In this document: piece after piece, positions 10,389 through 35,627 of the stretch
Numbering within the stretch: the first letter of the stretch is position 1
Layout of the letters: every line of letters begins with the position of its first letter
Origin: a virus
DNA: 41,952 nucleotides
IMG/VR virus record: IMGVR_UViG_3300050821_006440
Span: 1-41,952 of that record
Reading direction: 5' to 3' (one strand)
Program-made: the position numbers and the translations under genes
The notes under the pieces: model-generated
The model's input: only the letters and a program-made list of their open reading frames with translations
What the model was told of the DNA's origin: nothing
The model's database searches: none

Positions 10389-10397
10389 CGCGACCGC

Positions 10398-10680: not shown

Positions 10681-10709
10681 TTGTCTAATCAAACTGTTTC
10701 GACTATAAT
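10681..10709 (+). promoter_or_regulatory. Near-consensus sigma70 promoter
   Basis: TTGTCT (10681-10686), a spacer of exactly 17 bases and TATAAT (10704-10709). This is the best promoter match I found in the window. Transcription should start near 10716 and runs into two hairpins and then the gene at 10812. It is probably the start of the rightward late transcript. Confidence 0.8.
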
Positions 10710-10714
10710 AGCTA

Positions 10715-10797: not shown

Positions 10798-10811
10798 TAA
10801 TAGGAGGGTAG

Positions 10812-11045
10812 ATGCGTTTTGACACGCCATTGAAGAAGTTGCGCCGTAAACTCAAATGCTTCCTGACTGGCCACTTCTGGCTACGTACTCACTATCCAGC
10901 CGTCAAAGGGTACAAGGGGCCTCGCGGCCAACGCATGGTGGAGGGTCTATCCTGCCGGTGCGGAGCATGGGCAATTGGCCATTGGGAGCTAGAGAACCTG
11001 GACCCGGTGATTATCAAGCGGCATAACATTCGGACGCATGAATGA
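10812..11045 (+). CDS. Small basic protein with a Cys pair
   Basis: 77 aa, TAGGAGGGTAG site ahead of ATG 10812. A basic N-terminus (MRFDTPLKKLRRKLKCFLTG), then GLSCRCGAWAIGHWELE, a C-x-C pair that could be half a zinc site. It starts a chain of genes overlapping as ATGA (10812, 11042, 11278, 11562). Function unknown. Confidence 0.7.
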   Translation: MRFDTPLKKLRRKLKCFLTGHFWLRTHYPAVKGYKGPRGQRMVEGLSCRCGAWAIGHWELENLDPVIIKRHNIRTHE

Positions 11046-11281
11046 CGCGTAAGTATACGAAGAGCGGCAAGCCGCGCAAGCCATACACCCGGCGCAAGCC
11101 CTATCCCCATGGTCCGCGCAAGCCCGGCCTCGCCCGGGAGTATATGGACGCGTTCAACCTCACGCAGAGCTTTGAAGGCGCAGCGAAGTTATTCGGCGTA
11201 ACTCCGAATGCAATCAAGCTCTATTTCAAACGCAACGGTATCGAGATCATCAAGCACGCACGCAAACGGGAGCCAAAATGA
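11042..11281 (+). CDS. Small helix-turn-helix DNA-binding protein
   Basis: 79 aa with an extremely basic, proline-rich arm (residues 1-30, SGKPRKPYTRRKPYPHGPRK) followed by a helix-turn-helix: SFEGAAKLFGVTPNAIKLYFKR (about 43-64). The arrangement is like homeodomain-type resolvases and small regulators. ATGA overlaps on both sides make it part of the coupled run. It might regulate this operon or serve in DNA packaging. Confidence 0.7.
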   Translation: MTRKYTKSGKPRKPYTRRKPYPHGPRKPGLAREYMDAFNLTQSFEGAAKLFGVTPNAIKLYFKRNGIEIIKHARKREPK

Positions 11282-11565
11282 CCAAGCCAGTTAAGACAGA
11301 CGCGACGAAAGCAGCCGAGGAAGCGCTTCAAAAGGAAATTGAGGCACGCAATAAGGCGCACGCGCCGAACCGTCCACATACACAGCTATGGTGCCTTGAT
11401 TGTGAGACGGGCGGCGGCGAGACGCTTCACGCGGAAGGCTCCATGGAATGGGTCATGCTCAACGCATTCCGGAAGCTGGCCGAGTACAACTTCCTCGGCA
11501 TTAACATTCGGGTGTATATGAAGGCGCTCGGGCCTACTCCTGAGCGCAAGGCGGAAAAGCCATGA
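11278..11565 (+). CDS. Small protein with a CxxC pair
   Basis: 95 aa. A charged helical N-terminus (residues 1-35), then TQLWCLDCETGGGETLH with C-x2-C, and a C-terminal alpha/beta part (MLNAFRKLAEYNFLGINIRVY). Only one Cys pair is present, so any zinc site would need a partner. ATGA overlaps both neighbours. Not recognised. Confidence 0.65.
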   Translation: MTKPVKTDATKAAEEALQKEIEARNKAHAPNRPHTQLWCLDCETGGGETLHAEGSMEWVMLNAFRKLAEYNFLGINIRVYMKALGPTPERKAEKP

Positions 11566-11888
11566 CCCTCCAAATCCCCCGCGCCATCACGTCCATACGC
11601 CAGAACGAGCGCGCGCTTAAGCGCATGTCGCGTTGGATGACTGAGCCTGAGATTGACGCCAGCCCGCGTCGGCACCGGCAGCTCTTGCGCTTGTCCAAGG
11701 CCATTCGGCGCTTCGAGAAGCCGCGCTATGACCATCTTTTCTACACACCCACGGAATGGGAGATGATGGAGTTTCGGCTTGAGAACTTGAACATCCCTTC
11801 GACTGGCCTAGACGCCGACTCAGTTCGCGCATACTTGAATGGCGAGATCACCACGGATCAGCTCATTGCGAAGGCGAACCATGAGTGA
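11562..11888 (+). CDS. Unknown basic helical protein
   Basis: 108 aa, basic in the first 60 residues (RQNERALKRMSRWM, RRHRQLLRLSKAIRRFEK) and acidic towards the end (GLDADSVRAYLNGEITTDQL). Mostly helical with no Cys. Its start overlaps the previous stop as ATGA and its end overlaps the next gene by eight bases. Function unknown. Confidence 0.65.
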   Translation: MTLQIPRAITSIRQNERALKRMSRWMTEPEIDASPRRHRQLLRLSKAIRRFEKPRYDHLFYTPTEWEMMEFRLENLNIPSTGLDADSVRAYLNGEITTDQLIAKANHE

Positions 11889-12057
11889 CTATCCCGCCTG
11901 GGTCTGCCAGGACTGCGCCTTAGCCAACGGAGGCCGCATCATCCCCGGCCACGTCAGCACGCACCACGATGGCAAGTGTGACCTATGCGGCCAGGTCAAG
12001 TCTGTGACGGAGCCGAGGGACTATGGGCATTTGCCCAAGTTGGAGAAGAAGCAATGA
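11881..12057 (+). CDS. Small zinc-ribbon protein
   Basis: 58 aa from ATG 11881. WVCQDCALANGG and later KCDLCGQVKSVTEPRDYGH give two C-x2-C knuckles 24 residues apart, a zinc ribbon common among short phage proteins of unknown function. A longer in-frame start at 11839 would lie fully inside the previous gene and lacks a binding site. The stop overlaps the next start as ATGA. Confidence 0.75.
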   Translation: MSDYPAWVCQDCALANGGRIIPGHVSTHHDGKCDLCGQVKSVTEPRDYGHLPKLEKKQ

Positions 12058-12437
12058 GCGACCCATTACTTACCTGCCCGCTATGCGGCCATTCAGCTCA
12101 CAATCACGGCGATCATTGGTCTTGCTCCAATGACCCGATTTGCCCGCTTGGGTGCGCCGTATATACCAAGGAGGATTGGGCAGAACAGCATACTAGGTTT
12201 ACTCGGCTGATTGCAGGCCGAACCGAATCCATAGAGCTGGAGTCGCTGAGGTCCAAGATCGGTCCTTTGGACGCGGAAGCCTGCCGCTGGCACATCATAG
12301 CCGACGAGCGCGCAGCCGAGATCGTGCGCCTGAATGGCCTATTGATTGAGCATGGCCGCACCTTTTACAGGATGCGCGACAAGCTCACCGCGTTGGGGCA
12401 TTGGCCGTTAGAAGAACAGATCCCGCCTCCGGAATAA
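12054..12437 (+). CDS. Zinc-ribbon protein, restriction-alleviation (Lar)-like N-terminus
   Basis: 127 aa. The N-terminus, LLTCPLCGHSAHNHGDHWSC followed by a nearby second Cys, is the C-x2-C ... C-x5-C pattern of Lar-type proteins, which protect phage DNA from type I restriction. The rest is a helical domain (about 45-120). Zinc binding is clear; the Lar function is only suggested by similarity of pattern, and the usual Lar family is shorter. ATGA overlap with the gene before; a large terminator follows. Confidence 0.6.
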   Translation: MSDPLLTCPLCGHSAHNHGDHWSCSNDPICPLGCAVYTKEDWAEQHTRFTRLIAGRTESIELESLRSKIGPLDAEACRWHIIADERAAEIVRLNGLLIEHGRTFYRMRDKLTALGHWPLEEQIPPPE

Positions 12438-13734: not shown

Positions 13735-14242
13735 CGGATACGGAGCATCGCTAGGCGATATTAATCTAACCGGCTCAGGCAGCGGTTTAACCAGCGGATC
13801 AGGCGGAAGCGGCAGTTATAGTTATGGTCAGAATCCTTATACGAGTCAGCCTCTAATTTCCCAGTCCATGTTAGGCACGATTGGAAACGATCCCAACACT
13901 GGAATGCCCACTGACAGTTATACAGGTCCATCGGGTGCACAGGGTCTTGCCAACGGCCTTGCTCAAATGCAGCAGGGTAGCTCAACTCAACTTCCCAACC
14001 TTCAAACCAATACGAGCGTGGACCAGGGCTTGATGGCCAATATCAATCAGGCTATCCAAGGCATCGGTAGCGGCATTCCTAGCGCGCCCTACATGCCGAT
14101 CTATCCCGGTCAGAGCATGGGCATGGGAGGCAACGGCGTGGACATGGCGGAAGGCGGCGACCATGCCCAGCTTGCCTCCATGATGGCGTCCGGCGCGCTC
14201 CAGGGGATGAATCCGGGCTATCTGTCTCAGATGGCGCTATGA
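13727..14242 (+). CDS. Gly/Ser/Gln-rich low-complexity protein upstream of terminase
   Basis: 171 aa from GTG 13727. The first 45 residues are almost entirely Gly, Ser, Thr and Tyr (GSGSGLTSGSGGSGSYSYG), the middle is Gln/Asn-rich, and the end is rich in Met and Gly (PGQSMGMGGNGVDMAEGG). It is probably disordered. Its position between the small genes and the large terminase, with an ATGA overlap to the latter, suggests a head or packaging role, but no family is recognised. Confidence 0.65.
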   Translation: MASGYGASLGDINLTGSGSGLTSGSGGSGSYSYGQNPYTSQPLISQSMLGTIGNDPNTGMPTDSYTGPSGAQGLANGLAQMQQGSSTQLPNLQTNTSVDQGLMANINQAIQGIGSGIPSAPYMPIYPGQSMGMGGNGVDMAEGGDHAQLASMMASGALQGMNPGYLSQMAL

Positions 14243-15855
14243 GCGACCAGCGCACCGAGTTTTACAAACTATTCCGCGAGCTTGAGGGACGCGTTGCTAA
14301 ACAATCACCGTTCTATATGGCGAAGTACATCATGGGCCGAGGCCTTTTTGTTCACGACCGCGCGGTTGGTTGGTCGCAAGCACACCTTGAGCTTTCAGCT
14401 CTTATGTGGGGCCTCTACCGGCTGCGCCATGACCGTAAGGCTGGAACAATCCTTAAAGTGGAGTGGTGTCGCGGATCCAGGAAGTCAACTCTCGGCGGGG
14501 CTCTCATCGTGTGTGTTCTCCTTGATGACCCCAATTTTCGGTGGCTTCTGGAGTCGGACACGGAACTCAACGCCTCCAAAAAGCTCCAGCCCATCAAAGC
14601 CACCTTTGAAGACGAATATTTCAAGTGGCTCTACGGTGACCGGCGGGGCCGCGTCTGGAAGGCGGACGAACTCGAAGTCATCCGCACGGCCAAGCTCTCA
14701 GATCCCTCTGTTTACACTACCGGCATTGGAACGGAAAAAACGTCGCAACACTACGACGGGATGATGCCCGACGATTTGCAGACGGAAGGCAACGCCAACA
14801 CCCTTGAGCAGGTTGAGAAGGTGCGCTCAGGCTTCAGGCTCTATGAATCTCTCGGCGTCGGCTCCTATTTCCTCGTAAACATGGGTACTCGATGGGCGTT
14901 CTCGGATCTCGGGGCCATGATTGACGAGATGGCCGCCGACGATAGTCGCCAGGGCCGCCAGCAGCGTATATTTATCGACAAGCGCCCGGCGTACAAGCAA
15001 GGCCCCAAGGGCGAGTTTATCTATACGGAGCCCAACTTCCCGGAAACGCTGCCTTTGGAGGTGCTGCGCGTCAAGCGGCAGTCGGAAGGTGCGGAGCTTT
15101 TCAGCTACAACTACCTTTTGGAGCCGTTGAGCGACGAAACAGCCATTTTCAAGCGCCAGAACCTCCAGTACCACGAAAAAGGCGTCAAGGATCTTCCGGG
15201 AGCACATTTTTACCTCGCGGTAGATCCGGCGGGCTCGGGCGGTTTCAACGGCGCGGATTTTAACGCGTTCGTAGTGTGTGCCGTTACCGAGTACGCCGAG
15301 CTTTATGTCATGGAAGCCGTTGCCAAACATTGCACCGAGCAAGGGATCTTGGACGAGATCATTCGGATGGCCCGGCAGTACCCCTTGCGAGGGGTGATGG
15401 TGGAGAAACGGTTTAAGCAGCACCAACTGGCCGCCTGGCTGAAAAAGGAATCGTACAAGACGCCGGTTCCGATCCCCTGGAAGGAATTTAAGCAGGACGA
15501 CCGCTCTAAGCAGCAGCGTATCAAGGCGCTGCGCCCCTATTTTGAGTCCAACAAGGTCTTTTTGCGCCGGTCCATGGTGGACCTGGAAGACCAGGTGCTC
15601 AAGTTCCCGCGCCTGGAGCATGACGACCTCTTGGACGCCTGGGCCTTTATCTTAGACATGATGTTTGTCCCTCAGTCGCACGAAAAGGGCGATTGGTGGC
15701 TCAGGGACGACTGGAAGACCCAATTCGAACCGACGATCAAGCAGCCAACCTTGCCCAGCGATAACGACGTTCGGACCTGGCGCTTCAAGCGCATGGCGTC
15801 CGAGCACAAAGCGCACCGGCAAACCGTGCTGCCGCTGAGTAGGGGGATGAAGTGA
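14239..15855 (+). CDS. terL: Terminase large subunit
   Basis: 538 aa, the DNA-packaging motor. The ATPase half has a degenerate Walker A, EWCRGSRKST (about 75-84), where the usual GKS/T is RKST, and a Walker B-like YDGMMPDDL (172-180). The nuclease half has the RNase H-type acidic residues: YLAVDPAGSGG (D329) and HDDLLDAWAF near residue 465. It would cut concatemers and pump DNA into the prohead through the portal. The start overlaps the previous stop as ATGA, and its own end overlaps the portal's GTG. Packaging by headful would fit the circularly permuted look of the genome, but that is inference. Confidence 0.95.
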   Translation: MSDQRTEFYKLFRELEGRVAKQSPFYMAKYIMGRGLFVHDRAVGWSQAHLELSALMWGLYRLRHDRKAGTILKVEWCRGSRKSTLGGALIVCVLLDDPNFRWLLESDTELNASKKLQPIKATFEDEYFKWLYGDRRGRVWKADELEVIRTAKLSDPSVYTTGIGTEKTSQHYDGMMPDDLQTEGNANTLEQVEKVRSGFRLYESLGVGSYFLVNMGTRWAFSDLGAMIDEMAADDSRQGRQQRIFIDKRPAYKQGPKGEFIYTEPNFPETLPLEVLRVKRQSEGAELFSYNYLLEPLSDETAIFKRQNLQYHEKGVKDLPGAHFYLAVDPAGSGGFNGADFNAFVVCAVTEYAELYVMEAVAKHCTEQGILDEIIRMARQYPLRGVMVEKRFKQHQLAAWLKKESYKTPVPIPWKEFKQDDRSKQQRIKALRPYFESNKVFLRRSMVDLEDQVLKFPRLEHDDLLDAWAFILDMMFVPQSHEKGDWWLRDDWKTQFEPTIKQPTLPSDNDVRTWRFKRMASEHKAHRQTVLPLSRGMK

Positions 15856-17981
15856 GCACAGACCTGGCCAAACTGACCGAGGCGCAGAAAGCGACCATTG
15901 TTGCCGAGCTGGAGAAGCAGTATCGGGACGCGCGTTCAAACCAACGCGAGGCCCGGCGCAAGTGGGCTAAGGTGGAGCACTACCTTGCTGGCCGCCAATA
16001 CTGGGTCAACAACACGGCTGGCCGTCTTGGGCGTCCTGTGGGCTACGAAGTGGCAAGTGCGCCGTCAGCGACCGGGGATATCGACGACGAATTCATGATT
16101 GCCAACGATATCAAGCGCGTCTACATGACCAATATGCAGCGCTTGACCAACTATTACCTCGTGCCGGACGTGCAACCCAATACGCGCGCGGAGAAGGACA
16201 AGCAAGCCGCGCGTCTCGGCCGGATTTTCCTCAACGATCTCTTCACCCGCTACGGTCCGGAGAAGCTTAAGAAAGAGATTGCGCGAAATAAGATCATCTA
16301 CAACAAAGCGTGGCTCAAGATCGTGTGGAACCCAACTGCCGGCAAATTGGTGCCTAAGGCCACCAAGGGGATCAAGGGTTGGTTTTTCAACAAGAAGGAA
16401 ATGGTCCCTGAGGGTGATATTGAGATCACCGTGCCGAGCCCGCGCAACACGATCCTCCCGCGCTTCACGTCCAACCGTAAGCAGATGGATTGGATGATCG
16501 AGATCCACAGCGTCACCACGGAGCAGATTTACCGGCGCTATGGAACGATGGTCCAGCCCGAGGCCGTGCGTTCGGACGACCTGGGCATTTCCGGCACGGG
16601 TGCCGGTTGGGTGGACGATCCCGAGAGCGAAGGCCGCTTGCGTGGATCCTCGGAAGAGACCATGGACCGCGCCTTGCTCAAAGAGATGTGGGTGCGCCCA
16701 TGCAGCCAGTATGAGCAGGGCGCTATTTTCGCTTGGGCCAACGGCACGTTGCTTGAGAGCCGCCCGCTGACGCCGTACTACACGGACATTCCTTACTTCG
16801 ACACGGAAATTTTCTACGACGACAAGGACATATTCGGGATCTCCATCCTGTGGGATCTCTTGCCGCAGCAGGATGTGATTAACCTCGGATATTCTGCGGT
16901 GACCCGCTGGCTCAAGATGATCTCCCAGCTTCGCATGTGGGTTCCGTCCTCGTGCAACGTCAAGACCGAGGATTTGAACAACAACACCGGCACGGCCATC
17001 CTCTATGACGGCGAAGCGCGCCCGGAGTGGGATCCGGTTCCGGCGATTCCGGAAAGTGTGATGCAGTCCATCGGCCTGGCGCGCGATTTCATGTCCTCGC
17101 ACGGCTTCGCGAATGAGTTGGCGAAGCAGCATCAAACGGCCAGCGGCAACGCGTTGGGCATCATGCAGGAAATGGACGACACGATCTTTAAGCCCAGCCT
17201 GGAGAGCGACCAGCTCATGCTGAGCGAGGCCGGAACCTTCATGCTCCAGCTTGCCGCCAAGTACATCAAAATGCCTCGGCTCATTGAAATGAGCGGCAGG
17301 GATGGCTGGCAGGTCAAGGAAGGATTCATTGGAGAAATGTTAAGTGGCAACTTCCGCGCCAAGGTCAACGTGGCTGCCGGTATGCCGTCTAACAAGATCC
17401 TGAGGCTGGAATACCTCAAGGCGCTCTTTAAGGACGGCTTGATGGATAAGGACCAGCTTGTCCCCTATCTGGAGTTCCCGGACGACAATAGCGCCCTGGA
17501 GGACATTCAGAAGCAAAATGAGATCGGGGACATGCGAATTGAGCAATTAAAGAAGTTTCCCGAGAATTACACGTCAGTTCCGAGCCGAGATGGCTCAAAA
17601 GTCTACGTTTGCAACGTAAAATACCATCAATTTGATAACCATGCAGTGCTTACGGCTAAGCTTACCCTGGCCATGCAAGAGGACTTTGACCACTGGAATC
17701 CGTGGGTACAGCTTGCCTTTTTGGATAATTGGAAGTATCATTCGGCACAGTTGGCGGCATTGAGCCAGCCTCCCCCGCAGCCGGGAGGCGGAATGCCGAT
17801 GGGCGGCCCCCCAGGTGCCCCCCCGATGGGTCCGGGCGGGCCGCCCCCGATGGGCATGGGAATGCCGCCAACGCCGACACCTCCACTTGCCGAGCCACTG
17901 GCGGATTCACCCCAGGCCGCAGGGCAGCAGCCGGACCGTAGCTTGATACCCAATGCCACGGCGACCGGCTTCACGGCTTAA
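15852..17981 (+). CDS. Portal protein (P22-like)
   Basis: 709 aa from GTG 15852, close to the 725 aa of the P22 portal. An N-terminal helical region (LEKQYRDARSNQREARRKWAK) with GRQYW, central wing/stem domains with PYFDTEIFYDD, IPESVMQSIGLAR and TASGNALGIMQEMDDT (a known portal-type segment), and a C-terminal Pro/Gly/Met-rich tail (about 635-700) that is probably flexible. Twelve copies would form the DNA channel and dock the tail. Directly between terminase and scaffold, as in podoviruses. Confidence 0.92.
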   Translation: MSTDLAKLTEAQKATIVAELEKQYRDARSNQREARRKWAKVEHYLAGRQYWVNNTAGRLGRPVGYEVASAPSATGDIDDEFMIANDIKRVYMTNMQRLTNYYLVPDVQPNTRAEKDKQAARLGRIFLNDLFTRYGPEKLKKEIARNKIIYNKAWLKIVWNPTAGKLVPKATKGIKGWFFNKKEMVPEGDIEITVPSPRNTILPRFTSNRKQMDWMIEIHSVTTEQIYRRYGTMVQPEAVRSDDLGISGTGAGWVDDPESEGRLRGSSEETMDRALLKEMWVRPCSQYEQGAIFAWANGTLLESRPLTPYYTDIPYFDTEIFYDDKDIFGISILWDLLPQQDVINLGYSAVTRWLKMISQLRMWVPSSCNVKTEDLNNNTGTAILYDGEARPEWDPVPAIPESVMQSIGLARDFMSSHGFANELAKQHQTASGNALGIMQEMDDTIFKPSLESDQLMLSEAGTFMLQLAAKYIKMPRLIEMSGRDGWQVKEGFIGEMLSGNFRAKVNVAAGMPSNKILRLEYLKALFKDGLMDKDQLVPYLEFPDDNSALEDIQKQNEIGDMRIEQLKKFPENYTSVPSRDGSKVYVCNVKYHQFDNHAVLTAKLTLAMQEDFDHWNPWVQLAFLDNWKYHSAQLAALSQPPPQPGGGMPMGGPPGAPPMGPGGPPPMGMGMPPTPTPPLAEPLADSPQAAGQQPDRSLIPNATATGFTA

Positions 17982-19463: not shown

Positions 19464-20675
19464 ATGTCTACCATTGGATTTGACACAAGCGTTCTCAACA
19501 AGTTGACCAAGCATGTGTACGACACCGGCATCACGGATCAGATGATTGCCAGTGCTCCATACGTCAAGAAACGTCGCAAGAAGCCCCTGGACCTCGGTTC
19601 TGACGCCAACTTCTCCATCGAAACCGGATGGGGGGAAGGTATCGGCGCGCGCGGTGACCGCGAACCTCTGCCGGTCCCGCAGGCTCCGACCTACCTCTTG
19701 CCGACCTTTGATGCTGTGGACGAGTACGTGGTCCTCCGCATCACCGGCAAGGAAGACGTGCGGACCAAGAACGGCACTCGCGCTACCGCCGAGTACCTGA
19801 AAGACCTCCTGGCCGGTTCGTCCAAGAACTTTTGGCGCGACCTGGAATTCCAGGCGTTCAACGACGGTTCGGGCCTCCGCGCCAGCGTCACCACGAACGC
19901 GGTCCAGGGCGCAGCCGTCACGATCACTTGCGCCAATAACATCCCGCTTCGCGGCGTGCGCCAAAACATGACCATCGAGTTTTGGAACGACGCCACCCAG
20001 CAGCTCCTTGGTGAGCAGGTGGTGACCTCGGTCAACCGCCTGAGTGGCACGTTCGTTTGCGACCTGGCGCAGGACATTCCCGCCGGATCGAACGTGTACG
20101 TGAAGGGCAACCGTCAGCGCGAAATCTACGGGCTGCAATACCTGATTACCGACGCCACCGGCCCGGCGACCGTGCTTGGAATCGCCACCTCGATCTACGA
20201 ATGGAATAGCACCCTGTACGCCAACGGCGGTAACACCCGCGACCTGACCATTCAGCTCTTGGATGCCGCGTACTTCAGCAGCATGGAGCAGAACGACCAG
20301 GCCCCCAGTGAATACTGGATGGCGTACTCGCAAATGAAGGCTTGGACCGCGCTCGTGAACCGGAACTTCCAGGTCAACGGCAGCGGCCCCGGCGTGCGCG
20401 TGGACGCGCATAACGAGATCGTCGGCTTTGGCGAAGCCAAGGTGAACGTGACGAGCCAGTGCGCCCCCGGCCAGGTGTTTGTGATGCAGGGCGATGACGT
20501 GGAGATCCGGGAACTCATGCCGTTTGGTCCGGTGACCGAGGAAGACGCCGAGAACATTTGGCACAAGATCCAGGGCTACCACGAATTCGAAGCCACCTTC
20601 TGGTGGAGCGGTAACCAGATCGTGAAACGCCGCAACCTGCACAGCCAGATCACCGACCTCACCATTCCTTCCTAA
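19464..20675 (+). CDS. Major capsid protein
   Basis: 403 aa, right size and place for an HK97-fold coat protein. No membrane or signal segment; a mix of alpha and beta with the features of the P22-type coat group (an N-terminal arm MSTIGFDTSVLNKLTKHVYD, a helical spine around RATAEYLKDLLAGSSKN, and a C-terminal EATFWWSGNQIVKRR strand). AAAGG lies ten bases before the ATG. Hundreds of copies would build the shell. The coat gene should be the most highly expressed of the operon. Confidence 0.88.
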   Translation: MSTIGFDTSVLNKLTKHVYDTGITDQMIASAPYVKKRRKKPLDLGSDANFSIETGWGEGIGARGDREPLPVPQAPTYLLPTFDAVDEYVVLRITGKEDVRTKNGTRATAEYLKDLLAGSSKNFWRDLEFQAFNDGSGLRASVTTNAVQGAAVTITCANNIPLRGVRQNMTIEFWNDATQQLLGEQVVTSVNRLSGTFVCDLAQDIPAGSNVYVKGNRQREIYGLQYLITDATGPATVLGIATSIYEWNSTLYANGGNTRDLTIQLLDAAYFSSMEQNDQAPSEYWMAYSQMKAWTALVNRNFQVNGSGPGVRVDAHNEIVGFGEAKVNVTSQCAPGQVFVMQGDDVEIRELMPFGPVTEEDAENIWHKIQGYHEFEATFWWSGNQIVKRRNLHSQITDLTIPS

Positions 20676-20698: not shown

Positions 20699-21295
20699 AT
20701 GAAAAAGATCCTTGTGCTCGTCCTCCTGGCTATGGGCTTCGCGGCCCTTAGCCATGCGTCCACCCCGACGCCCACGTATACCCCCAGCGTTACCCCGCTG
20801 CCCACGACCACCCCGGCCACCCCTCCGGGCGGCCCGCCGATGACCCTGAATGGCGGTGAATTCTTCAACAACCGCTATATCAGCCTCGGCACCCGGGGCG
20901 GCCAGCAAGGGCAGGTTGTGTTGCCCTACACGGCCTTGGTCAATATCACCAAGGGCGACTTGGTGACCCTGGCCGCGCCTGTGTCGGGCATTCCGGGCGG
21001 AGTCACCGAAACGACCACGGCGGGCGATGTGGCCTGGATCGGAGTGGCGGTGGATACCTGTCTGACCTATCAGAAGGTCCACGTCGCCATTTCGGGACGT
21101 GTCCGGGCCAAGATCGCCATGAATGTGACCGCAGGGGATACCTTGAGTCCCAGCGGTACGGCGGGGGCGCTGACGGAAACCAGCTCCTTGACCGCTGCTA
21201 CGTACACCTCGCTTTCGCGAACGCCGATTGTGGCAGTCGCGGAGGAAACGAACGTGTTTGGCGAACTTGCGCTTATTCGCCTCAACTCGCGCTAG
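20699..21295 (+). CDS. Signal peptide plus capsid-cement (DUF2190-like) domain
   Basis: 198 aa. Residues 1-20 are a clear Sec signal peptide (MKKILVLVLLAMGFAALSHA). Then comes a Thr-Pro linker (TPTPTYTPSVTPLPTTTPATPP) to about residue 45, and a beta-rich domain (about 50-198) with NITKGDLVTLAAPV, a strand KVHVAISGRVRAKI and NVTAGDTLSPSG: the pattern of the small head-decoration family found next to many coat genes. A cement protein would stay in the cytoplasm, so the signal peptide is odd. Either the domain is exported for another use, or the leader was added by fusion. AAGGAG precedes the start. Confidence 0.75.
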   Translation: MKKILVLVLLAMGFAALSHASTPTPTYTPSVTPLPTTTPATPPGGPPMTLNGGEFFNNRYISLGTRGGQQGQVVLPYTALVNITKGDLVTLAAPVSGIPGGVTETTTAGDVAWIGVAVDTCLTYQKVHVAISGRVRAKIAMNVTAGDTLSPSGTAGALTETSSLTAATYTSLSRTPIVAVAEETNVFGELALIRLNSR

Positions 21296-21304
21296 GGGCA
21301 AGCC

Positions 21305-21538
21305 ATGAGCCAGACAAGCATTGACCGCCTGACGAATTACATCGTCGCGCGCGCGACCGGGACGGGGGCCAGCATCCTTTATACCCACGGGATGCAGGCC
21401 ACCCCGTACTTCATCGAGGTACTCCCTGAGGTGAGCACGACCACCTACTCAGTGGATTCCTTCGACAACAAGACCATGCACGTAACCATTGGCAACGGCG
21501 GTGTCGCCACCATCATTGCTTGGTTCCGGGGCAACTAG
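21305..21538 (+). CDS. Unknown small beta protein
   Basis: 77 aa, mostly beta with alternating Thr/Val/Ile (TTTYSVDSFDNKTMHVTIGN), ending VATIIAWFRGN. The C-terminal IGNGGVATIIAWFRGN resembles the last strand of phage beta-sandwich appendage proteins. It is one base from overlapping the next gene's GTG. Probably a head or tail accessory protein; not recognised. Confidence 0.65.
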   Translation: MSQTSIDRLTNYIVARATGTGASILYTHGMQATPYFIEVLPEVSTTTYSVDSFDNKTMHVTIGNGGVATIIAWFRGN

Positions 21539-21816
21539 TGCAAATCGTCTGCGCTAAGACGCCGAGTGGGCTCTACCTACCCTTAGCCACTCAAGAGGGT
21601 GGAAAGCCGCTCCCTCGGCGTCTTCGTAGGCGGCAAACGGAAGAGGAAAAACGCGGAGCTTACTTGCTCCGGAATCTCGGCGCTGAAAAGGTGGCCGAGA
21701 ACTCAATACGCGCACACAAGGAACGCGTTGCGAGGGAAGAGGCAAGGATCCTTGATGATTGCAGCCGCGACCTGGACGAGCGGTTGGAGTTTGTCCACAA
21801 ACAACTGTCCAGCTAG
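21538..21816 (+). CDS. Unknown charged helical protein
   Basis: 92 aa from GTG 21538, which shares its G with the previous TAG; a TTG at 21520 would extend it by six residues. After a short beta start (TPSGLYLPLATQ) the protein is highly charged and helical (RRLRRRQTEEEKRGAYLL, ERVAREEARILDDCSRDL). Possibly an internal head protein. Function unknown. Confidence 0.6.
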   Translation: MQIVCAKTPSGLYLPLATQEGGKPLPRRLRRRQTEEEKRGAYLLRNLGAEKVAENSIRAHKERVAREEARILDDCSRDLDERLEFVHKQLSS

Positions 21817-21827
21817 GGAGTTAGCCC

Positions 21828-22217
21828 ATGCCGATGGATGCAAAGCAGGCCGAGAACAATCAGAGGATGTACGCGCGCGCCACTGGGGATCCCGTGTGGC
21901 TGATTTGCACCGGCAAGACGATCCCGATCTTGAAGAAAGATCCGGTTGAGGAAATCGAAGCCGGGCGCACCTTCAACCTCTCTTGGCAGGGTGCCAAGTA
22001 CGTTCTCAACTACGGCGTCAAGGACGGTGGAAAGGTGCCGAACGGCTGCTTGATGCCGCGCGCTGCCGCCGAATTCTTCAAGGCCCAGGCCGCGCAGAAG
22101 TGGACCCCGCGCCTGGCGTTCGAAGTCAAGGAGATCGGTCCCGCCGTGGCAGCCGATCCGGAGCCGCCCGCAGCCGATCCCGACGCTCCCAAGCGGGGCA
22201 GGCCTAAGGGGAGTTGA
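21828..22217 (+). CDS. Unknown protein with a C-terminal AT-hook-like tail
   Basis: 129 aa, GGGAG ahead of ATG 21828. A globular part (about 15-105) with DPVWLICTGKTIPILKK and NLSWQGAKYVLNYGVKDGG, then an Ala/Pro/Asp linker and PKRGRPKGS at the end. The RGRP core is the AT-hook that binds the minor groove of AT-rich DNA. In this position it might help to hold DNA in the head. The assignment is from the motif only. Confidence 0.65.
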   Translation: MPMDAKQAENNQRMYARATGDPVWLICTGKTIPILKKDPVEEIEAGRTFNLSWQGAKYVLNYGVKDGGKVPNGCLMPRAAAEFFKAQAAQKWTPRLAFEVKEIGPAVAADPEPPAADPDAPKRGRPKGS

Positions 22218-22909
22218 TGGCTCAATTCTCTGATTTCACCTTTGGCGGGTTGAAGCAGCGGGTTTTCTTTCGCCTTCTGCAAGATCCTCGCTACACGGAC
22301 CCGGGTGTTCCCACTTTGCCTGGGTCCGCCATTGGCGTGGCGGTGAATAAGGGAATCGCACAGCAGTACATTTACAACCGAGTGGCCACGAATGTCTTGA
22401 CCACGAATACCTTCCAGCTCTCAGCGCCAGATCCAAACGCCGGTCTCTACTCTCAGTTCTACCCGCTTCCGACCGGCACGCTTTGGGTTGACTACGCCTC
22501 TTACGACGACGTTCCTTTGCAGCCGATGACGGAAAAGGAATTGATTGCCACCGGCATTGAGAAGGCAACGTTCGTTGGGAACTCGCGTTGGTACAACATT
22601 CAGGACCAGCAGGACGGATCCAAGACCATGGTGCTCTTTGGCCGCCCTGACCGCACGGTCCTCCTGAAAGTCTATGGTGGCGTTTCTCCCGCCTACCTTG
22701 TGAACGACGCGGATATCCCTCAGATCAACCCTGTCTTCGCGGATCCCATCGAGCTTTACGCTTGCTGGTATTTGCTCCAGGGGCAGCCAGAAGAAAGCCA
22801 ACGCGCGCAAGAATTCTTCCAGCTTTGGCAGAAACAGCGGAATGAAGTGAAAGTCATCGCGCGCTTGGATCGAAATTGGCGCATTGATCGGTGGAGGGAT
22901 TACCCATGA
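22217..22909 (+). CDS. Head-tail adaptor / neck protein
   Basis: 230 aa from ATG 22217 (TGATG with the previous stop; a TTG at 22214 is less likely). Helical start DFTFGGLKQRVFFRLLQDP, a central beta part (FPLPTGTLWVDYASYDDV-like, with MTEKELIATG) and a helical end with QPEESQRAQEFFQLWQKQ. Proteins of about this size and form, coded after the coat region in podoviruses, join portal and tail (gp4/gp6-like). The call is by size, pattern and place; no catalytic motif. Confidence 0.65.
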   Translation: MAQFSDFTFGGLKQRVFFRLLQDPRYTDPGVPTLPGSAIGVAVNKGIAQQYIYNRVATNVLTTNTFQLSAPDPNAGLYSQFYPLPTGTLWVDYASYDDVPLQPMTEKELIATGIEKATFVGNSRWYNIQDQQDGSKTMVLFGRPDRTVLLKVYGGVSPAYLVNDADIPQINPVFADPIELYACWYLLQGQPEESQRAQEFFQLWQKQRNEVKVIARLDRNWRIDRWRDYP

Positions 22910-23373
22910 AAAAGCTTCTATTCCTACTGGGCCTTGCGCCTACGCTTCTCCTGGCCGGTCCTTCGCTTAATTCCAGCCAGGCCAACGCCTTGATTAAGCT
23001 GGACTCGGACGCCCGCGCCTTCCTGACTAGCTCCCATATCCAGTATGCGAGTCTGACCGTCACGAGTACGGCGACTGTGAACGGCCTAACCGTTGTGGCG
23101 GCTGTGGCTGGCAAGACCATCGCCGTTGTGGGTTGGTCCGTCAGCACGGATACCGCGTGCAAGATCATCCTTCACCACCAAAGCGGAACTGCTGTCCGGG
23201 ATAATACCGCCTCGAATATTTTCGGTGGCGGCGTCTTTGGAGCCAATGGCGGCGAACGCGGGAATCCTGGCTTTTGTTGGTATCCCGGCCTTGGCACCAA
23301 TCAGCCGATTTGCGCTGACGTGAGCACGAACGTCACTGCCATTGAAATTGACGTTGCCTATGTAACGTACTAA
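22906..23373 (+). CDS. Secreted small beta-sandwich protein
   Basis: 155 aa from ATG 22906, overlapping the adaptor's stop as ATGA; GGAGGG ahead. A Sec signal peptide (MKKLLFLLGLAPTLLLAGPS) precedes an all-beta region with short alternating strands (YASLTVTSTATVNGLTVVAA, GKTIAVVGWSVSTD) and ends in a beta strand IEIDVAYVTY. That last pattern is like the receptor-binding or collar beta-sandwiches of phages. Exported structural-type protein in the middle of the tail genes; see the finding on secreted proteins. Confidence 0.7.
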   Translation: MKKLLFLLGLAPTLLLAGPSLNSSQANALIKLDSDARAFLTSSHIQYASLTVTSTATVNGLTVVAAVAGKTIAVVGWSVSTDTACKIILHHQSGTAVRDNTASNIFGGGVFGANGGERGNPGFCWYPGLGTNQPICADVSTNVTAIEIDVAYVTY

Positions 23374-23377
23374 GCCG

Positions 23378-24880
23378 ATGAAGCGCCTAGGCTTAGTCCT
23401 TGGTCTATTGTTGCTGGCGTCTCGTGCCAGTGCCACGGTTATGGGCTTTTACAACTTTGCCCAAAACTTGAATGACACTGGCGGGGCCGGACGCAATGGA
23501 ACGGCGATTGGTAGCGGCCCGCTTTATGTGAGCGGTACGCCTTCCGGTGTGACGAACTCGTTTTGTGTCTCGTCTACCGCATGGTCTACCAATGGGGCCA
23601 CTCTTCCTAATACCCTTTTCCCGACCGGAACGACCGGCAGCGTTGGGCTCTATTTCTATTTGTCCCAGCTTCAACCCGTTGGGAATACGTTTGTACCGTT
23701 TGATTCCATCGGGACCAATGGACGCCTCGGCCTTGAGATCACGCCCGAAACCGCTCACATGCAAGAGAATGGCACGTTGGGCTTAAATATGCCTTTTGCT
23801 GGCGGCGGCGAACGAGACGCCGGTAAACCATTTAATTGGAATCAAGGCCGTTGGTATCGGGTTGTTTTAACCTGGAGCGGCACCACCGTTAAGCTTCTCT
23901 GCAAGGATATCAGCCAAGGCGTCTATACGACCGTCTATAGCGGGACTATGGGTGGAACGTATGCCCCGGGAACGACGAGCAATATTTATATTGGAAAATA
24001 TGAAGCTGGAAGCGGTAACGATTGGCCTGGATATCTCAGCGGCTTATTGATTACGGATCAATATTGCCCCACTGGCGATGACGCTCTATTGCCAACGGCG
24101 GCCTCGGCTCAGTGGCTTGTGAATAGTTGGGGCGCTTCGATGATGCAGGGTTTTTGCGGATCGTCGAACGAAAACGGTATTCGCACGCCCATGCAGGTGC
24201 TTGCTCAGCAGCTTGGAATCAATCTGTTTGCAGCCGGTACGAGCAGCTTCAATATTGACAGCACCATTCTTGCTCCCTACACGGATGCCGTTGCCGGTAA
24301 TAACAGCACTCAGTTTACGACCCGGTTCCATTCGGCGTCCCCGGCCTATGGCAGCTTACAGTTTCAATCCGGAACCTCACAAACCTGTTACCTCTACATG
24401 GCCGACCTTTGGCTCAACGACCACGACCAAGGTGTTGCTCTAACCGTGTCGGCTGCCGATGAATACGACTTCTTGACCACCACGGCCCAGCGGGGAAGCC
24501 GGGTTGTCTTTACCACGGCCATTCAAACTCTACGTTTCACCACTCCGGGAATTTATGAGACGCCGGAAGTAGCCGCCTATAACGGTTGCACTGGCGTTGC
24601 CGCCATCTATGGCAACGTGATTTGCTATGACGCCTGGCACGCTCAGACCACTACCTCGGATTGCGGGGATAGCACGCATCCAAGTGCCAATTCCTACGGA
24701 GCTTTAGCGGCTGCCCTGGAGCCTTTGATTGTGGCTACGAATACGCCTACGGTGACGCCGACCGCCACTCCGACTCCCACGGCTACGGTTACGCCTACGT
24801 TCACCAATTCCCCTACGCCAACGGCTACGAATACGCCGTGCCCGCTGTGCTTCCTGAATGACCGCAGGCGTAGGCGATGA
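23378..24880 (+). CDS. Secreted LamG-like plus SGNH/GDSL hydrolase with Thr-Pro tail
   Basis: 500 aa. Signal peptide (residues 1-19); a concanavalin/LamG-like beta domain (about 22-228); a SGNH hydrolase domain (about 245-450); a Thr-Pro repeat (454-487); then [13 protein letters not shown] at the C-terminus. The four SGNH blocks are visible: S254 in WGASMMQG, G287 in FAAGTSS, N347 in LWLND, and D431/H434 in [12 protein letters not shown]. Such enzymes remove acetyl or acyl groups from cell-surface sugars, and the LamG domain would bind sugar. In tails they are unsecreted; here the leader argues for export from the infected or lysogenic cell. Confidence 0.8.
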
Positions 24881-25347
24881 TTCGCGGGGCTCTAGTTGTC
24901 CTGATCCTCTTGCTGGCCGCTGCCGGTAATGCGGCCACGCCTACGCCTACCTCCACAGTAACCAATACCTTTACGATTACGCCGACCTTCACCATTACGC
25001 CGACTATCTCTCCCACGCCTACCTTTACGTTTTACCTTACGCGGCGTCCTACTAGGACCGTGACCGTTACCGTTTCGCCCACTAAGACCTTCACGGCGAC
25101 GGCCACCATTTCTCCGACTTTCACCGTTACTAAGACGTTCACTATCACCACCACCTTTACGAATACCTTCACTCAAACGACCACCTTCACCATTTCTCCG
25201 ACCTTCACTGTTACGCCGACCTTTACGGCGACTCCTACCGCTACGATCACCCCGGACTTCACGCCGACCAACACCCCTGTTTGGTGGACCCCGACTCCAT
25301 TCATTACGCCGCTGCCGTGGTACACCCCTACTCCGATTGAACGATGA
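24877..25347 (+). CDS. Secreted Thr-Pro repeat (mucin-like) protein
   Basis: 156 aa, overlapping both neighbours as ATGA. A signal peptide ([20 protein letters not shown]) is followed by about 110 residues made of T-x-T-x-T and PTFT/PTIT repeats ([20 protein letters not shown]...), and an end rich in Trp, Pro and Thr ([21 protein letters not shown]). No folded domain is seen. The repeats would make an extended, possibly O-glycosylated surface rod or a spacer. The DNA is repetitive too and may be prone to expansion. Confidence 0.75.
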
Positions 25348-28300
25348 CTCAGCGGAGCATGATTCGTCTATCGGATGGAACCGGCGGGCTCAACTTGCGG
25401 GATCCTAAGAGCGCGCTCACTCCGACACAGTTCGCGCACCTTGAGAACTACATCACCGATGATGGGGCTTATCTTAAGAAGCGCCTCGGCCAGGAGCTTT
25501 TGCAATATGCTCCGATCAATTCGCAACCATTTACCGCCACGCCAAACAGCATTGGGCTGTGGACCTTATCTGAGGATACGCTTCCTTTCGATGACACCGG
25601 AATCGGAGGCAGCGGCGTTCCGGATAACTATCTAATGGCCTCCACTGGAATGGGGCCGTTACCTAACGTTCCGTTTGTCCCGGTTCAAGGCATTTTTGGG
25701 AATGCTCAAGAACTGTTTGGATATGGATCTAATCCAAATGATCCCGGAAGTGAACAATCCTTGAAGTCCTTCTTTAATTTCACCAACTCATTGGTGGATG
25801 GACTACAGACTTGCACTTACGAATGCTGGATTAAGATCCCGCCCTACTATACCGGTAAGCCACATACCGGCTCCGCTATCACCGGAGGATTGTATATCTC
25901 TGACAGCAACTCGAATTTGCTGACCACTTCCTCACAGGATAATGTCCAAAATGTCGAAACGCAGCTTTCAACTGCCTCGAATGGCTTGATCCTTTTTAGG
26001 GATTGGGACTATACCAATGGCAAAGACGCATCCGCCCCGTACTTTGTCTTCGCCGTGAATACCAATCAAGGTCGCTTCACCGTCAAGAGCGGTGCATTGC
26101 CTATCGGGTCATGGATTCATCTACGCGGAGTGTTTAATAGCACGACCGGATTTATGAAGGTGTTTCTTTCCGGAAACTTGCTTAATCAGATTTCTATTCC
26201 ATTGGGTTCCGTTATTTATGAGAAATCTCCCAATAGCCATGATTTCATGGTTAATGTCGGCCCTGTCTTTGCCTCCTACGTAAACACTGTTACTGGGGCT
26301 TATCTCGGGACTAGTGACGCGATTATTTTAGGTGGCGGCGATATCCAAATTTGCCAGTGCCAGATTTCGAATATTGAAGTCCTGACGTTCCCTTACTATG
26401 AGCCGCGCGGGAAGCCGTTGGTCCTGACCACTTCGAACGGCACTAATCAGCTCATAGTGGCGGCGGGTCCGGCCCTTTGGTATACGGTTGGCGATGGCAA
26501 CTGGACGATGATCTCCAACACTGACGCGGCCACTGGCGCACCTCTAAATCAAGTCGCGGTTTGGGATGGAGTCCAGCTAGGGGATCGTCTCTATCTGACG
26601 AACGGAGTCAATCAGCCGATCACTTGGAATGGCGCGGTGGCCTGTCCCACGGGCAATCCTGTGGCCGCGATGACGCTTGCCGATTCTGGCGTTGGTAGCA
26701 CTCATACCAATGGTGCGTTCAACTACGTTTACACCTATGTCTACGGCAACACCGAAACGGGATTTAGCCCGGCCACTCAAATAACGATTTTTAATAGCCA
26801 TACCGTCAATATGACCGGCATTCAGGGCCGGGATATTAATTGCACGAGCATTAATATCTACCGGACCAAGGCCGGGTTGGGAACCTATTATTTGCTGCGT
26901 AATATTCCTAACCCAGGACTCGGGAATACCGCAAGCCTGACCGGCGCATGGATCAATGGGAATCAGCCGAATCTGGATACGGGCGGCGATGGCGTTCCCG
27001 ATGGCAGCACTAGCGGGGAATTGAACGACAACCCAAGTTATCCGACCGTTGATCCGAATGTCCAGACGAGCACCGTCCCCCTGGGCGCATGGTATCTGCC
27101 TGAGCATAATCGCCTTTTCATCATTGGGATTGTCAACGCTCCCTATTCGCTCTATTGGTCTGAGCTTGGAAACCCGGACGTTGTACTAGCCAATTCATTC
27201 GTGAACGTGTCGGCGGAAAAGGGTCCATTGAACGGAATGGCATCTTGGATGGGTGAAATTATCCTTTCCAAGAATGCCCAGGCAACGACCGTTTTGCGCG
27301 GGACGGATCCGTCCAACTGGGTCTTGACTGAGAACGTACACCCTGACGTTGGATGCAGGCACCACTGGGCTTTCGTTCGCCGGTATCCTATTGATAGTCA
27401 GCAGTTCTATTCCTTGATGTTTCTTGGGAACGATGGGATCTACGCCTACAACGGCCTCAGGCCGCAACGGATCAGTGACGTTATTAATCCACTATTCCAA
27501 AGCCTTGCCTCCAGCACTCAGCTTGATTGGCTTTTGACCTCCGGGCCTGATTTCACCTCACAGGCCAACGGCGGCACGATCTCGCAAAATATTTATTCTC
27601 CGACCTATACGACTGACGGCTTGCGTCAGAACCCGGGGAATATCGAGATCGTCAATCAGTTGGAGTATATCGGTCTTTGGAAGCCCTCGTCCCCGCTTGT
27701 TCCCGGGAACGTCATCGCCATTGAGAAGGGCGTTGCCGAGGGTGAATTTTGGTTTTCTACGGACCAGGACAACAACCTGAGGCATACCACGGATAATTTC
27801 GTGACCGTGAGCTTGGTCGCTGCAAATCCGATTCCTACCCAGGAAAGGATTGTGAGCATCACCAAGCAGGGTGCCGCTGACGCCTATTCCATTCTCACCG
27901 ACTCCAATGACGTTTTAGGGTTCGCCTCAGCCGTGGCTGGACCGGCCTCAAACGTTGTTGTCCCGGTTACCTACAACCCGTTGAACAACCGATTTGCGGT
28001 GACGGCCTATTTTGGCCATCCGCCCACGCCGGTTCCTTCCACCTTGATGGATATTTATGCAGCGGATGGGGTTACCTTAGTTGAAGCTAACGTGATTATT
28101 ACGGCTGTCAATATCGCCACCATCACGCTCAGCGCCATCACGACTTCTATTCCGCAGGGTGCCTATCTTTATCCATCCGGTAGTCTCCGGACTTCCAGCG
28201 GCGGCGGATATGTCTATACCTGGAATAACGCCACCACGGCTTGGATAAATACCAGGACTAACGCCACGCCAGCTCTTTACTATGACCTAGACGTGCCGTT

Positions 28301-30485
28301 CGTGGTGGCTCTGAATGATGCCGGTAATTTTGGCACTAAATTGCTCGGCAACTCCGCAAGTCCTAACGGGAACATTGGATCTCAGGGCTTTAGCGGAGTT
28401 AATAACAATACCTCCAATATAAACGTTCCCAACAATCACATGCAAAACGTCTTCCTGGACGCTGCCGTTGAAGGTTTTAGCAATGACCATAACGGTGGCA
28501 TTAGTTTCTTGGAAGGGATTGCCATTGTTGCTCCAGCCTCGTCGCCAACGCAGCATGTGACGTTAGATGGAAGCCAGACTATTGCGCTGACGGTTAATCC
28601 TAATGTCATTGCAGATGGTCCATTCTTTAATGCTCAAGGTTGGGCAAACCCTTTGACGGCTCCTTTTATGGCCGCTGGAGTTTTTCCGGAATTCCCTCTT
28701 TCTGATTCCGGGGTGCTTGGACTATATGGCCGGTTGAGCTATACCCATCGGGAATTCGCGGTTTGGCAGGGCGGAACTTTCAGGCCTCAGGCTTTTTGGG
28801 ATACCACGAACTCAAGGTTGGTCTTTCTGGCCGCGAGTGGCGATGGCGGCCCTATGGGTGTCTGGACGTGCACGACCGGCCTGGCGCTGACCAAACAGAG
28901 CACCACCCAAAATATTACCGCCATCACCACTGACGGCACTCATGGCTATATCACGGTTTCGGATGCCGGATGGAATGGCACGAGCGGGACGCGCAGCGGG
29001 ATCTGGACTTTTGACCTGGCCGCGTTCGGATTCGTGAATCAGAACGCCTATCAATACGACTTCACCTCTCAACGCCTTGCAATTACGGGTGGATATATAA
29101 CGTCCATTGGCAAAACCTACGAACGCTATTACAGCAGCTCTCAGGTGAGCAATAGCTTTGCCGTCCAGCAGCTACAGAATTATTGGGATTATTCCCTCGG
29201 CGTCGGCCTCGTCTCTCCCACGTATTCTTGGACGCTGTTTAATCCCAATTCGGTCTTCCCGGGAACTGGCGCGGGTCCGTGTGCCGGTGAGATCGGATCA
29301 TTCAATGGGAGCTATTACGTTATTCTACAGAATAGCGGCAACGTCTATTCCATGCCTAGTTCGGCGCAGGCCCTTTCGGACATTGCAAAGTTTTCCGAAT
29401 ATCTGGCTCTCTATGGCGGTTCGGCCACCGGCATAAGGAGCAACTTGCTTGCCGTGCCTCAGTCCGGGCCGACCGGTAGCAACCTATGGGCGGATCGTTT
29501 CTATTGGATGGCCTTTGATCCAACTGGCGGTAATACCACCCTCGTCCAACTGGGCGTGCCGGGAGGCTGGCGGGTCCAAGGCTCTTTCCTGACCGCACCG
29601 AAAAACCTTGGGGTCTTTGTCGCGTTTGGGAAGTTCACCACTTTCTATACGGGCAATATCCAGTTTTTCATGCGAAATGCCGCCACCGTTGGAGCGCTTC
29701 TGGCTTCTGAGCTAAGCGCGACTCCGAATGCTCAGATCCTCGGATTCCCGTCGCCGGGAATTCAGGCGGCGTGGCGCGCGCTTCTTGTTTGGGACGATAT
29801 CCAGACCCAGGTGACCCCATCAATCCAGTTTGTCGATATCGCCTATCTCCTGGGGGCAATTTCGGCTCCAGCTCCTAGCGCTGGATTTTGGGAGGGTCGC
29901 TGCTACTGGGCTCTGTCCAACCCCGGCGACACGAATAATAGCTTCATTCTTGTTCTAGATAAAAAGGGCGCGTGGACGACCTACACCGGCTGGCCAGCCA
30001 AAGGTTTGAATGTTTTCCGGGATCAGTTCGTGGATATTCAGGGCTTCGAGGCCTGCTATTTAGAAACTGGCAATACTGATAACGGGAATCCAATTGTTGC
30101 GCTGGCCAGGACGGGTGTTATTTCTGACGGACGATTAATGGGAATTGAAGACATTGAGGCGAATGTTTCGACGACCTATGACTCCAATTTCCCGGCCAAA
30201 TTGGGATATGTTTCCATTTATCCAATGCAAGGTGATAATATGGGTGTAAGCCCGTGGATTTTGCCGTTGCCCTCGGACCCAAATACTGAGCTACAGCACT
30301 CGATGGCTATCCCCACGGTCCCGATGGGCCGCGACTGGGGAAAGGCTTTTTCCATGGAAATAGGAACGCTGATTAATGGGCAGTTCGCCGGTTATTCAGC
30401 GGCGGTGAATCAGCAAGAGGTGATCCAGCAACTTGAAATTAAAGTGCTTGCCTCGGTTGTTGGCCGTAACTACGCGGGGAAGTGA
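25344..30485 (+). CDS. Giant tail hub / spike protein
   Basis: 1713 aa, the largest protein of the genome. The N-terminus, [20 protein letters not shown] with [17 protein letters not shown], is the opening of phage stabilisation or tail-hub proteins (P22 gp10-like). Residues about 70-340 resemble a LamG domain; about 350-760 look like a propeller with Fn3-like strands ([46 protein letters not shown]). The remaining 900 residues are beta-rich repeats with many aromatic turns ([25 protein letters not shown]). It probably attaches to the adaptor and carries the host-binding surface. The start overlaps the previous gene as ATGA. No signal peptide. Confidence 0.8.
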
Positions 30486-34390: not shown

Positions 34391-34602
34391 GCCAGCTATC
34401 CAAAATGGTCCGGGTTAACCCGACCACCACTATGAATAAGCTTCCGCGACTCAATACCACGTCGCTCTTGCACAACACTCTACTGGGCGCTGTGCAAGGG
34501 AAGGTCCAGCAGGCTAAAGCAACCGGCAGCCTATACAACTCTGTGACCGGGCAGAAAAACGATCTCGGGCCGAACTACCAGGCCGAGATGACCAACGACT
34601 AG
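34387..34602 (+). CDS. Unknown small protein
   Basis: 71 aa overlapping the previous gene as ATGA. MSQLSKMVRVNPTTTMNKLP, then a central helix (LLHNTLLGAVQGKVQQAKA) and an Asp end. No motif recognised. It belongs to the tail/ejection group by position. Confidence 0.6.
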   Translation: MSQLSKMVRVNPTTTMNKLPRLNTTSLLHNTLLGAVQGKVQQAKATGSLYNSVTGQKNDLGPNYQAEMTND

Positions 34603-34612
34603 GAGAGCCGCC

Positions 34613-34891
34613 ATGCCCGATCCGCAGGACTTAACTCAAACGGCCCAGGTGACCCCGCAGGCCACGCCCCAGGCTATGCCTATGAGCCCAACGGCGGGAA
34701 CGGGGCTCTATGGAACGATCACCGGAACCGCGCAGCCTACGGTCCAAGTTCCCACTGGACTTTGGGCCACGATCATGAATTTGGCTAAATTCATGCAGGC
34801 TACACCGGCCAGCGCTTCCAACGATGCGAAGTACCAAAAATACCTCACTGACGCGGGTATTGATCCCGATGACACCGGAGTCGGCAAATGA
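34613..34891 (+). CDS. Unknown small protein
   Basis: 92 aa, AGGAG eleven bases before ATG 34613. Gln/Thr/Pro-rich first half (TPQATPQAMPMSPTAGTGLY) and a helical second half with NLAKFMQATPASASNDAKYQ. The stop overlaps the next start as ATGA, which places it next to the lysis genes. Not recognised. Confidence 0.6.
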   Translation: MPDPQDLTQTAQVTPQATPQAMPMSPTAGTGLYGTITGTAQPTVQVPTGLWATIMNLAKFMQATPASASNDAKYQKYLTDAGIDPDDTGVGK

Positions 34892-35085
34892 GCACTACGA
34901 TTTTAGGAGATCACGACGAATCCTTGGGAGAGCGCATGGTGCGCGTCGAAACCAAGGTGGAGGCTCTGGAGGATGGCTTGAAAACCCTATCTAAGATGAT
35001 CCTTGGAACGCTCGTCTCATCCGTAGGCGTGCTCATCATGTTTATTCTGGATCACATGCACTTGCTCGGTGGCGCGCCCAAATGA
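34888..35085 (+). CDS. XhlA-like membrane protein (holin partner)
   Basis: 65 aa. A charged coiled coil (ERMVRVETKVEALEDGLKTL, about 15-35) is followed by one membrane helix (ILGTLVSSVGVLIMFILDHM) and a short tail. This is the layout of the XhlA haemolysin-type proteins that sit in the inner membrane and help lysis. It overlaps the endolysin gene as ATGA, which supports a lysis role. Confidence 0.75.
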   Translation: MSTTILGDHDESLGERMVRVETKVEALEDGLKTLSKMILGTLVSSVGVLIMFILDHMHLLGGAPK

Positions 35086-35619
35086 GCTTCGCTTCCGTGA
35101 TGGTGCTTGTCCTGAAAATGGAAGGCACCTACTCGAAGGTGCCCGGTGACTCAGGCGGCGAAACCGTCTTTGGAATAACCCGCGTCTATGATCCAGATTG
35201 GGCCGGGTGGCGGAGGGTGCAAAGACTTACAGGCTGAAAACGTCCCTACTGATAACTGGGCTAAAGACCCGGAATTAAATGCGGACGTGATGGATCACTA
35301 TCGGGCGCAATGGGAACTCTACCGAATGGATGAGATTCCCGACGAGGTTCAAGGCGTCCTATTTGGCGGAATCATTAATCAAGGGCCTCGCGTTGTTTCG
35401 TTCCTCCAGGCCGAACTAGCCGATCACGACAAATCCATAACTGTAGATGGCCACTTAGGCGACCTGACCTTGACTGCTATTTCCAAGGTTGACCCTGTGT
35501 GCCTTTGGAAGGGCCTGTGGAAGCGCCGGGCGGAAGCCTATCGCGACACGGCCAACAAACGCCCCGAGGATGCTCAATTTCTACTCGGTTGGCTCAACCG
35601 CCTCGGATTCGGGGCATAG
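35082..35619 (+). CDS. GH108-type endolysin, frame broken in this sequence
   Basis: The ATG at 35082 (ATGA overlap) opens MSFASVMVLVLKMEGTYSKV and GDSGGETVFGITR, the N-terminus of GH108 peptidoglycan hydrolases with the catalytic Glu in KMEG. That frame stops at about 35238 after WAGWRRVQRLTG. The second part is in the next frame, from about 35220: KDLQAEN, then FGGIINQGPRVVSFLQAEL and TVDGHLGDLTLTAI, the rest of the same domain. Joining the frames between about 35210 and 35225 gives a normal 178-aa enzyme. So there is one single-base indel near GGAGGGTGCAAAG: a sequencing error, a pseudogene or a programmed shift. Its product would cut the cell wall at lysis. Confidence 0.75.
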
Positions 35620-35627
35620 GAGGAACG

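Follow-up and report, generated by a model that had tools for sequence, protein, structure and literature searches.

In the textbook account, the assembly of tailed phages is wholly cytoplasmic, and no route is known to us by which proteins exported by Sec could reach a tailed virion in the cytoplasm. Sec leaders on virion proteins are familiar from filamentous phages (inoviruses), whose coat proteins carry them and whose virions are extruded through the membrane. Another kind of exported phage protein is represented by the T5 Llp type, a single small lipoprotein at the cell surface that acts against superinfection. The locus described here lies in one IMG/VR virus record (IMGVR_UViG_3300050821_006440), analyzed over its full length of 41,952 nt (hereafter, the window). 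It resembles the inoviruses in encoding late proteins with predicted Sec leaders, although terminase, portal, and capsid genes mark the window as that of a tailed phage. The putative export of phage protein near the cell surface recalls Llp, but involves four late genes without a lipobox rather than one lipoprotein: no Cys of the kind that marks superinfection-exclusion lipoproteins was found at the cleavage site in any of the four leaders.

Searching the literature for earlier accounts of virion proteins with leaders as a system yielded a passing mention only, namely one sentence stating that lyase proteins of the phages Ingeline and Nekkels carry "signaling peptides" (Bartlau et al. 2021, PMC8776804). 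Leader-bearing late genes have been seen before, yet the literature searched does not treat them as a system. Cultured Cellulophaga phages provide further examples, with virion evidence taken from GenBank annotation. In phi10:1, five consecutive genes (gp091-gp095) begin with leaders, and gp091-094 bear the GenBank note "structural protein, experimental MS/MS"; the leader-bearing gp085-087 of phi18:3 (Pachyviridae) are likewise annotated as structural by MS/MS. In view of these genes and of the Ingeline and Nekkels lyases, the original statement that no system of this kind was known is not supported.

The phi10:1 protein gp093 is a pectate lyase by RefSeq name; over residues 1-118, a stretch that takes in the leader, it shows 83% identity to phi18:3. 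Across a siphovirus and podoviruses, this leader and N-terminal module is 83-97% identical. The structural lyases of phi10:1 (44100-46433) and phi18:3 (34544-36901), from two families, share the leader module (83%) and differ in their C-terminal parts; as read from these sequences, this is module exchange with the leader kept. The pectate-lyase domain also occurs behind a leaderless N-terminus in structural proteins of phi17:2 (50% identity) and the crAss-like phi14:2 (44% identity). Leaders are not a general trait of Bacteroidota phages, being absent from the structural proteins of crAss001 and, with the exception of one small lipoprotein-like open reading frame (ORF), from those tail-region genes of Flavobacterium phage 11b that were inspected.

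The window has a GC content of 56%, and its ends (1-134 and 41819-41952) form an imperfect terminal repeat in which 128 of 134 bases match. Because of this repeat, the window is probably a near-complete genome; despite the 6 differing positions, the repeat suggests a circular or terminally redundant molecule. An integrase is encoded (phrog_1, 1e-70), and profile signals of P22/T7-like type (PF16510 and PF22530) were both below cut-off. By its gene content, the virus is a temperate, podovirus-like tailed phage (Table 1). The late operon, with terminase, portal, capsid, and tail genes, is tight, showing a largest gap of 32 bp and several ATGA overlaps, and the GC content of the four leader genes matches that of the operon. 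The prediction that these genes are joined to virion genes by overlaps was borne out for SP2, SP3, and SP4, where 4-bp overlaps link the genes starting at 22214/22906, 23378/24877, and 24877/25344, but not for SP1, which abuts its neighbors at distances of 23 and 9 bp. No close relatives emerged when the capsid, terminase, and 1713-aa proteins were each used as a scan query, and relatives in phage records were 19-29% identical; judged by these scans, the lineage is without a close relative in the collections searched. In the search for a host, two scans of genome contigs returned no relative, and no tRNA genes were found within the window.

Table 1. Late-operon genes of the window, including the four genes with predicted Sec leaders (SP1 to SP4)
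Feature	Coordinates	Strand	Description
Terminase large subunit (TerL)	14239..15855	+	phrog_38, 2e-62
Portal protein	15852..17981	+	phrog_156, 5e-18
Major capsid protein, leaderless	19464..20675	+	phrog_14242 major head protein, 1.9e-11
SP1	20699..21295	+	Predicted Sec leader 1-20, Thr-Pro linker ~21-47, 150-aa domain; directly after major capsid gene
Tail/connector protein, leaderless	22214..22909	+	phrog_10775 tail protein, 0.011; 4-bp overlap with SP2
SP2	22906..23373	+	Predicted Sec leader, 138-aa domain, 3 Cys; ATG overlaps the stop of 22214
SP3	23378..24880	+	Predicted Sec leader, LamG/concanavalin-like lectin domain 71-225, Thr-Pro tail, 10 Cys
SP4	24877..25347	+	Predicted Sec leader; mature protein of Thr-Pro/Phe/Val repeats (rod or spacer)
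1713-aa late protein, leaderless	25344..30485	+	Weak head-closure match, phrog_8040, 0.025

The four leaders proposed originally were recovered on ORFs at these positions, each with the n-, h-, and c-regions of a Sec/SPI signal peptide. The leader of SP1 reads MKKILVLVLLAMGFAALSHA with STPTP after the predicted cleavage site, and that of SP2 reads MKKLLFLLGLAPTLLLA followed by GPS. A rule-based Sec/SPI scorer (control scores: OmpA 6.75, PelB 5.91, PhoA 4.72) gave values of 6.05-6.25 for SP2, SP3, and SP4. For SP1, the automatic ORF choice fell on an overlapping antisense ORF, so the leader was judged by inspection with the rules of the scorer, to which it conforms (MKKILVLVLLAMGFAALSHA, then STP). 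The background of the scorer was low, with 1 of 696 ORFs flagged in ordinary podophage TerL loci and 5 of 1581 shuffled N-termini. Under a binomial model, leaders on four of nine consecutive genes have a p value of roughly 1e-8 or lower; SP2, SP3, and SP4 are consecutive, and SP1 follows the capsid gene. A clear Shine-Dalgarno sequence precedes SP1 and SP2 (GGAGG in the latter), and the translation start of SP3 and SP4 is coupled to the preceding gene. Dual starts that would give leaderless copies were rejected, and leaderless versions of the four proteins are unlikely, because the internal in-frame starts are without a Shine-Dalgarno sequence. Outside the leaders, hydrophobicity stays below transmembrane level, with one borderline exception in SP2 (residue windows starting at 58 and 61, mean 1.6-1.7). 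These results support the view that the four leaders are real Sec signals on late genes.

What lies behind the leaders agrees only in part with the original prediction. Thr-Pro repeats are present in three proteins as described, after the leader in SP1, at the C-terminus of SP3, and throughout mature SP4. The LamG domain of SP3 matched PF13385 (Laminin_G_3; 2e-6, 28.5 bits against a curated cut-off of 27.6) and is the only profile-supported domain among the four. The SGNH hydrolase proposed for SP3 found no such backing, since PF13472 matched nothing in the window even at E values up to 10; SGNH-like motifs in the C-terminal half were seen by eye only. Phage_cement_2 and HDPD profiles (PF09956, PF02924) did not match SP1, for which a cement-like domain had been proposed, and the beta-sandwich of SP2 was a reading by eye without profile support. 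No family could be assigned to the 150-aa domain of SP1, nor a known family to the 138-aa domain of SP2, and single-sequence AlphaFold models reached pLDDT values of 35 (SP1) and 31 (SP3), too low for the models to be of use. An internal LamG stretch (PF13385, 2.3e-4) at 26022-26201 lies in the leaderless 1713-aa protein; LamG is present both with and without a leader in one operon. Thr-Pro repeats were rejected as a mark of export, as long Thr-Pro stretches also occur in viral-contig proteins without a detected leader; three IMG/VR contigs (L195, L197, and L198) encode very long Thr-Pro regions in proteins of up to 1769 aa with no leader detected.

Leader clusters on late genes are, by these comparisons, not unique to the window virus. 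The uncultured MW202554 (Podoviridae sp. ctLwi270), reached via its terminase, carries leaders on five late genes surrounding portal and capsid, and the products include a LamG protein (8e-14) and a pectate-lyase/GH28-like protein. The uncultured MW202637 (Siphoviridae sp. ctUh1700) has three, of which one immediately follows the capsid gene. These unrelated phages share with the window a podophage-like late operon and several leaders; MW202554 further resembles it in its leader-bearing LamG protein and MW202637 in the leader gene immediately 3' of the capsid gene. Unlike the window, both carry other proteins behind the leaders, and no Thr-Pro rods were seen. A visual likeness between SP2 and a domain of MW202554 was ruled out by BLASTP.

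A scan of IMG/VR with a domain common to MW202554 and MW202637 showed leaders in about 20 of the best 80 relatives, the rest being leaderless. Leader-bearing loci spanned 37-71% GC; several lay directly 3' of the tape-measure gene, several comprised runs of two to four leader genes, and one leader-bearing protein contained a GDSL hydrolase domain (2e-16). Homologous domains in the cultured ordinary phages S-SRP01 and DB2 are leaderless. Many leaders of low-GC contigs and flavophages end in "...AQ", the usual ending in Bacteroidota.

The flavophages phi10:1, phi18:3, phi19:3, phi46:3, Nekkels, and Ingeline resemble the window in having a run of Sec-leader late genes in the tail/appendage part, and their leader genes include those of pectate-lyase proteins, with several products annotated as virion proteins by MS/MS. 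They differ from it in their Bacteroidota hosts, "...AQ" leaders, mostly low Cys content, and lack of Thr-Pro rods, and in the phi10:1 record no leader gene was seen beside the capsid gene. No sequence homology was detectable between window proteins and the leader-bearing proteins of the other phages compared, and phmmer against the ORFs of the compared loci, including phi10:1 and phi18:3, returned nothing significant. On this analysis, the link between window and flavophages is one of architecture and position, not of sequence homology. The window virus is probably not a phage of Bacteroidota, given its 56% GC and leaders without the "...AQ" ending; hence, it probably adds a non-Bacteroidota member with Thr-Pro rods and a leader gene beside the capsid gene.

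Cysteine content was tested at the level of single residues in the window, MW202554, and MW202637 combined. Mature leader-bearing proteins contained 49 Cys in 3205 residues (1.53%) and leaderless late proteins 64 in 13548 (0.47%), an enrichment in the pooled data (odds 3.3, p 4e-9) that fits folding outside the cytoplasm in an oxidizing compartment. The enrichment was not significant in MW202554 alone (p 0.10), and the leader-bearing proteins of flavophages are mostly not Cys-rich, so the sign is not general.

We see about an even chance that the four genes encode virion appendage or decoration proteins that are exported by Sec and become part of the particles at lysis or later. The proteins would be made late in infection and exported through Sec in the window's host, where signal peptidase would cleave the leaders; the mature proteins would then fold outside the cytoplasm and meet and join the particles at or after lysis, probably as receptor-binding or glycan-modifying parts, with the Thr-Pro stretches as extended spacers. 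Such a role is supported by leaders far above the scorer background, by the position within a tight head-tail operon, and by the same arrangement in the unrelated MW202554 and MW202637, as well as by the mixture of leader-bearing and leaderless proteins among the best 80 IMG/VR relatives and the leaderless domains of S-SRP01 and DB2. The structural annotation of leader proteins in phi10:1 and phi18:3, the lyase domain that is structural with or without a leader, and the pooled Cys enrichment point the same way. Counting against it, in addition to there being no route known to us, sequence comparison detected no homology between the window proteins and those flavophage proteins that have MS support, some of what MS/MS detects may be secreted protein sticking to particles, and the Cys sign is mostly missing from the flavophage proteins. 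A leader module common to a siphovirus and podoviruses would also be odd for a tail-specific docking domain.

That movement of leader modules among phages with different tails is what would be expected if no tail docking occurred, and together with the leaders, the Cys enrichment, and the LamG and lyase/esterase domains beside leaders in several phages it favors a secreted, non-virion role. Lectins, esterases, and rods would then cover receptors on infected cells and debris, or remove them, which would let progeny escape and prevent superinfection. We treat this as a serious rival, albeit on balance a rather unlikely one, that is close to the cell-surface shield first proposed for these genes. 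The shield fared poorly against the equivalent runs in phi10:1 and phi18:3, which are annotated as virion structural by MS/MS; moreover, the genes sit among head-tail genes and not with morons, and the lyase domain also belongs to structural proteins that have no leader. Detection in virions by MS would fit equally well with proteins that stay in the cytoplasm, their N-terminal hydrophobic segments, near transmembrane strength, remaining uncleaved and acting in assembly as membrane tethers or packing helices. This seems improbable to us given the n-, h-, and c-regions and small-residue cleavage site of every leader, the "...AQ" endings in low-GC contigs and flavophages, the lack of leaders on homologous domains in ordinary phages, and the Cys enrichment. 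Secreted bacterial proteins commonly have Thr-Pro repeats and LamG domains, and the leaders could conceivably be passengers on host genes for secreted proteins that entered the late operon by recent recombination and serve no selected function in the phage. The retention of leaders across phages of 37-71% GC, their occurrence in runs of several consecutive genes, and the matching GC of gene and operon make this very improbable.

A wider and more doubtful possibility is that several tailed-phage lineages complete their virions outside the cytoplasm, where part of the layer for adsorption and decoration would be exported by Sec, oxidatively folded in the envelope, and docked at lysis. Recurrent Sec leaders on annotated virion proteins either contradict cytoplasmic-only assembly or demand a second assembly step, and in some tailed phages the last steps of particle assembly may take place outside the cytoplasm. 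The annotation and expression of tail fibers and depolymerases would be affected, in that the leader ought to be taken off and disulfide bonds may prove necessary.

Other features were noted in these genomes. Near the integrase, a small gene of the window (2277-2675, minus strand) has a lipoprotein-type leader (MKIFIPAMLLPLLLIGC), and its product is possibly a lysogenic-conversion lipoprotein. The early region encodes a histidine phosphatase family protein (8921-9652, plus strand; PF00300, 1.5e-40). In MW202554, two ORFs (9804-12341) together encode the terminase large subunit, and the first of them contains an apparent intein-like insert (CRDAKLVKITLASGR ... VVSGYLSRNC).
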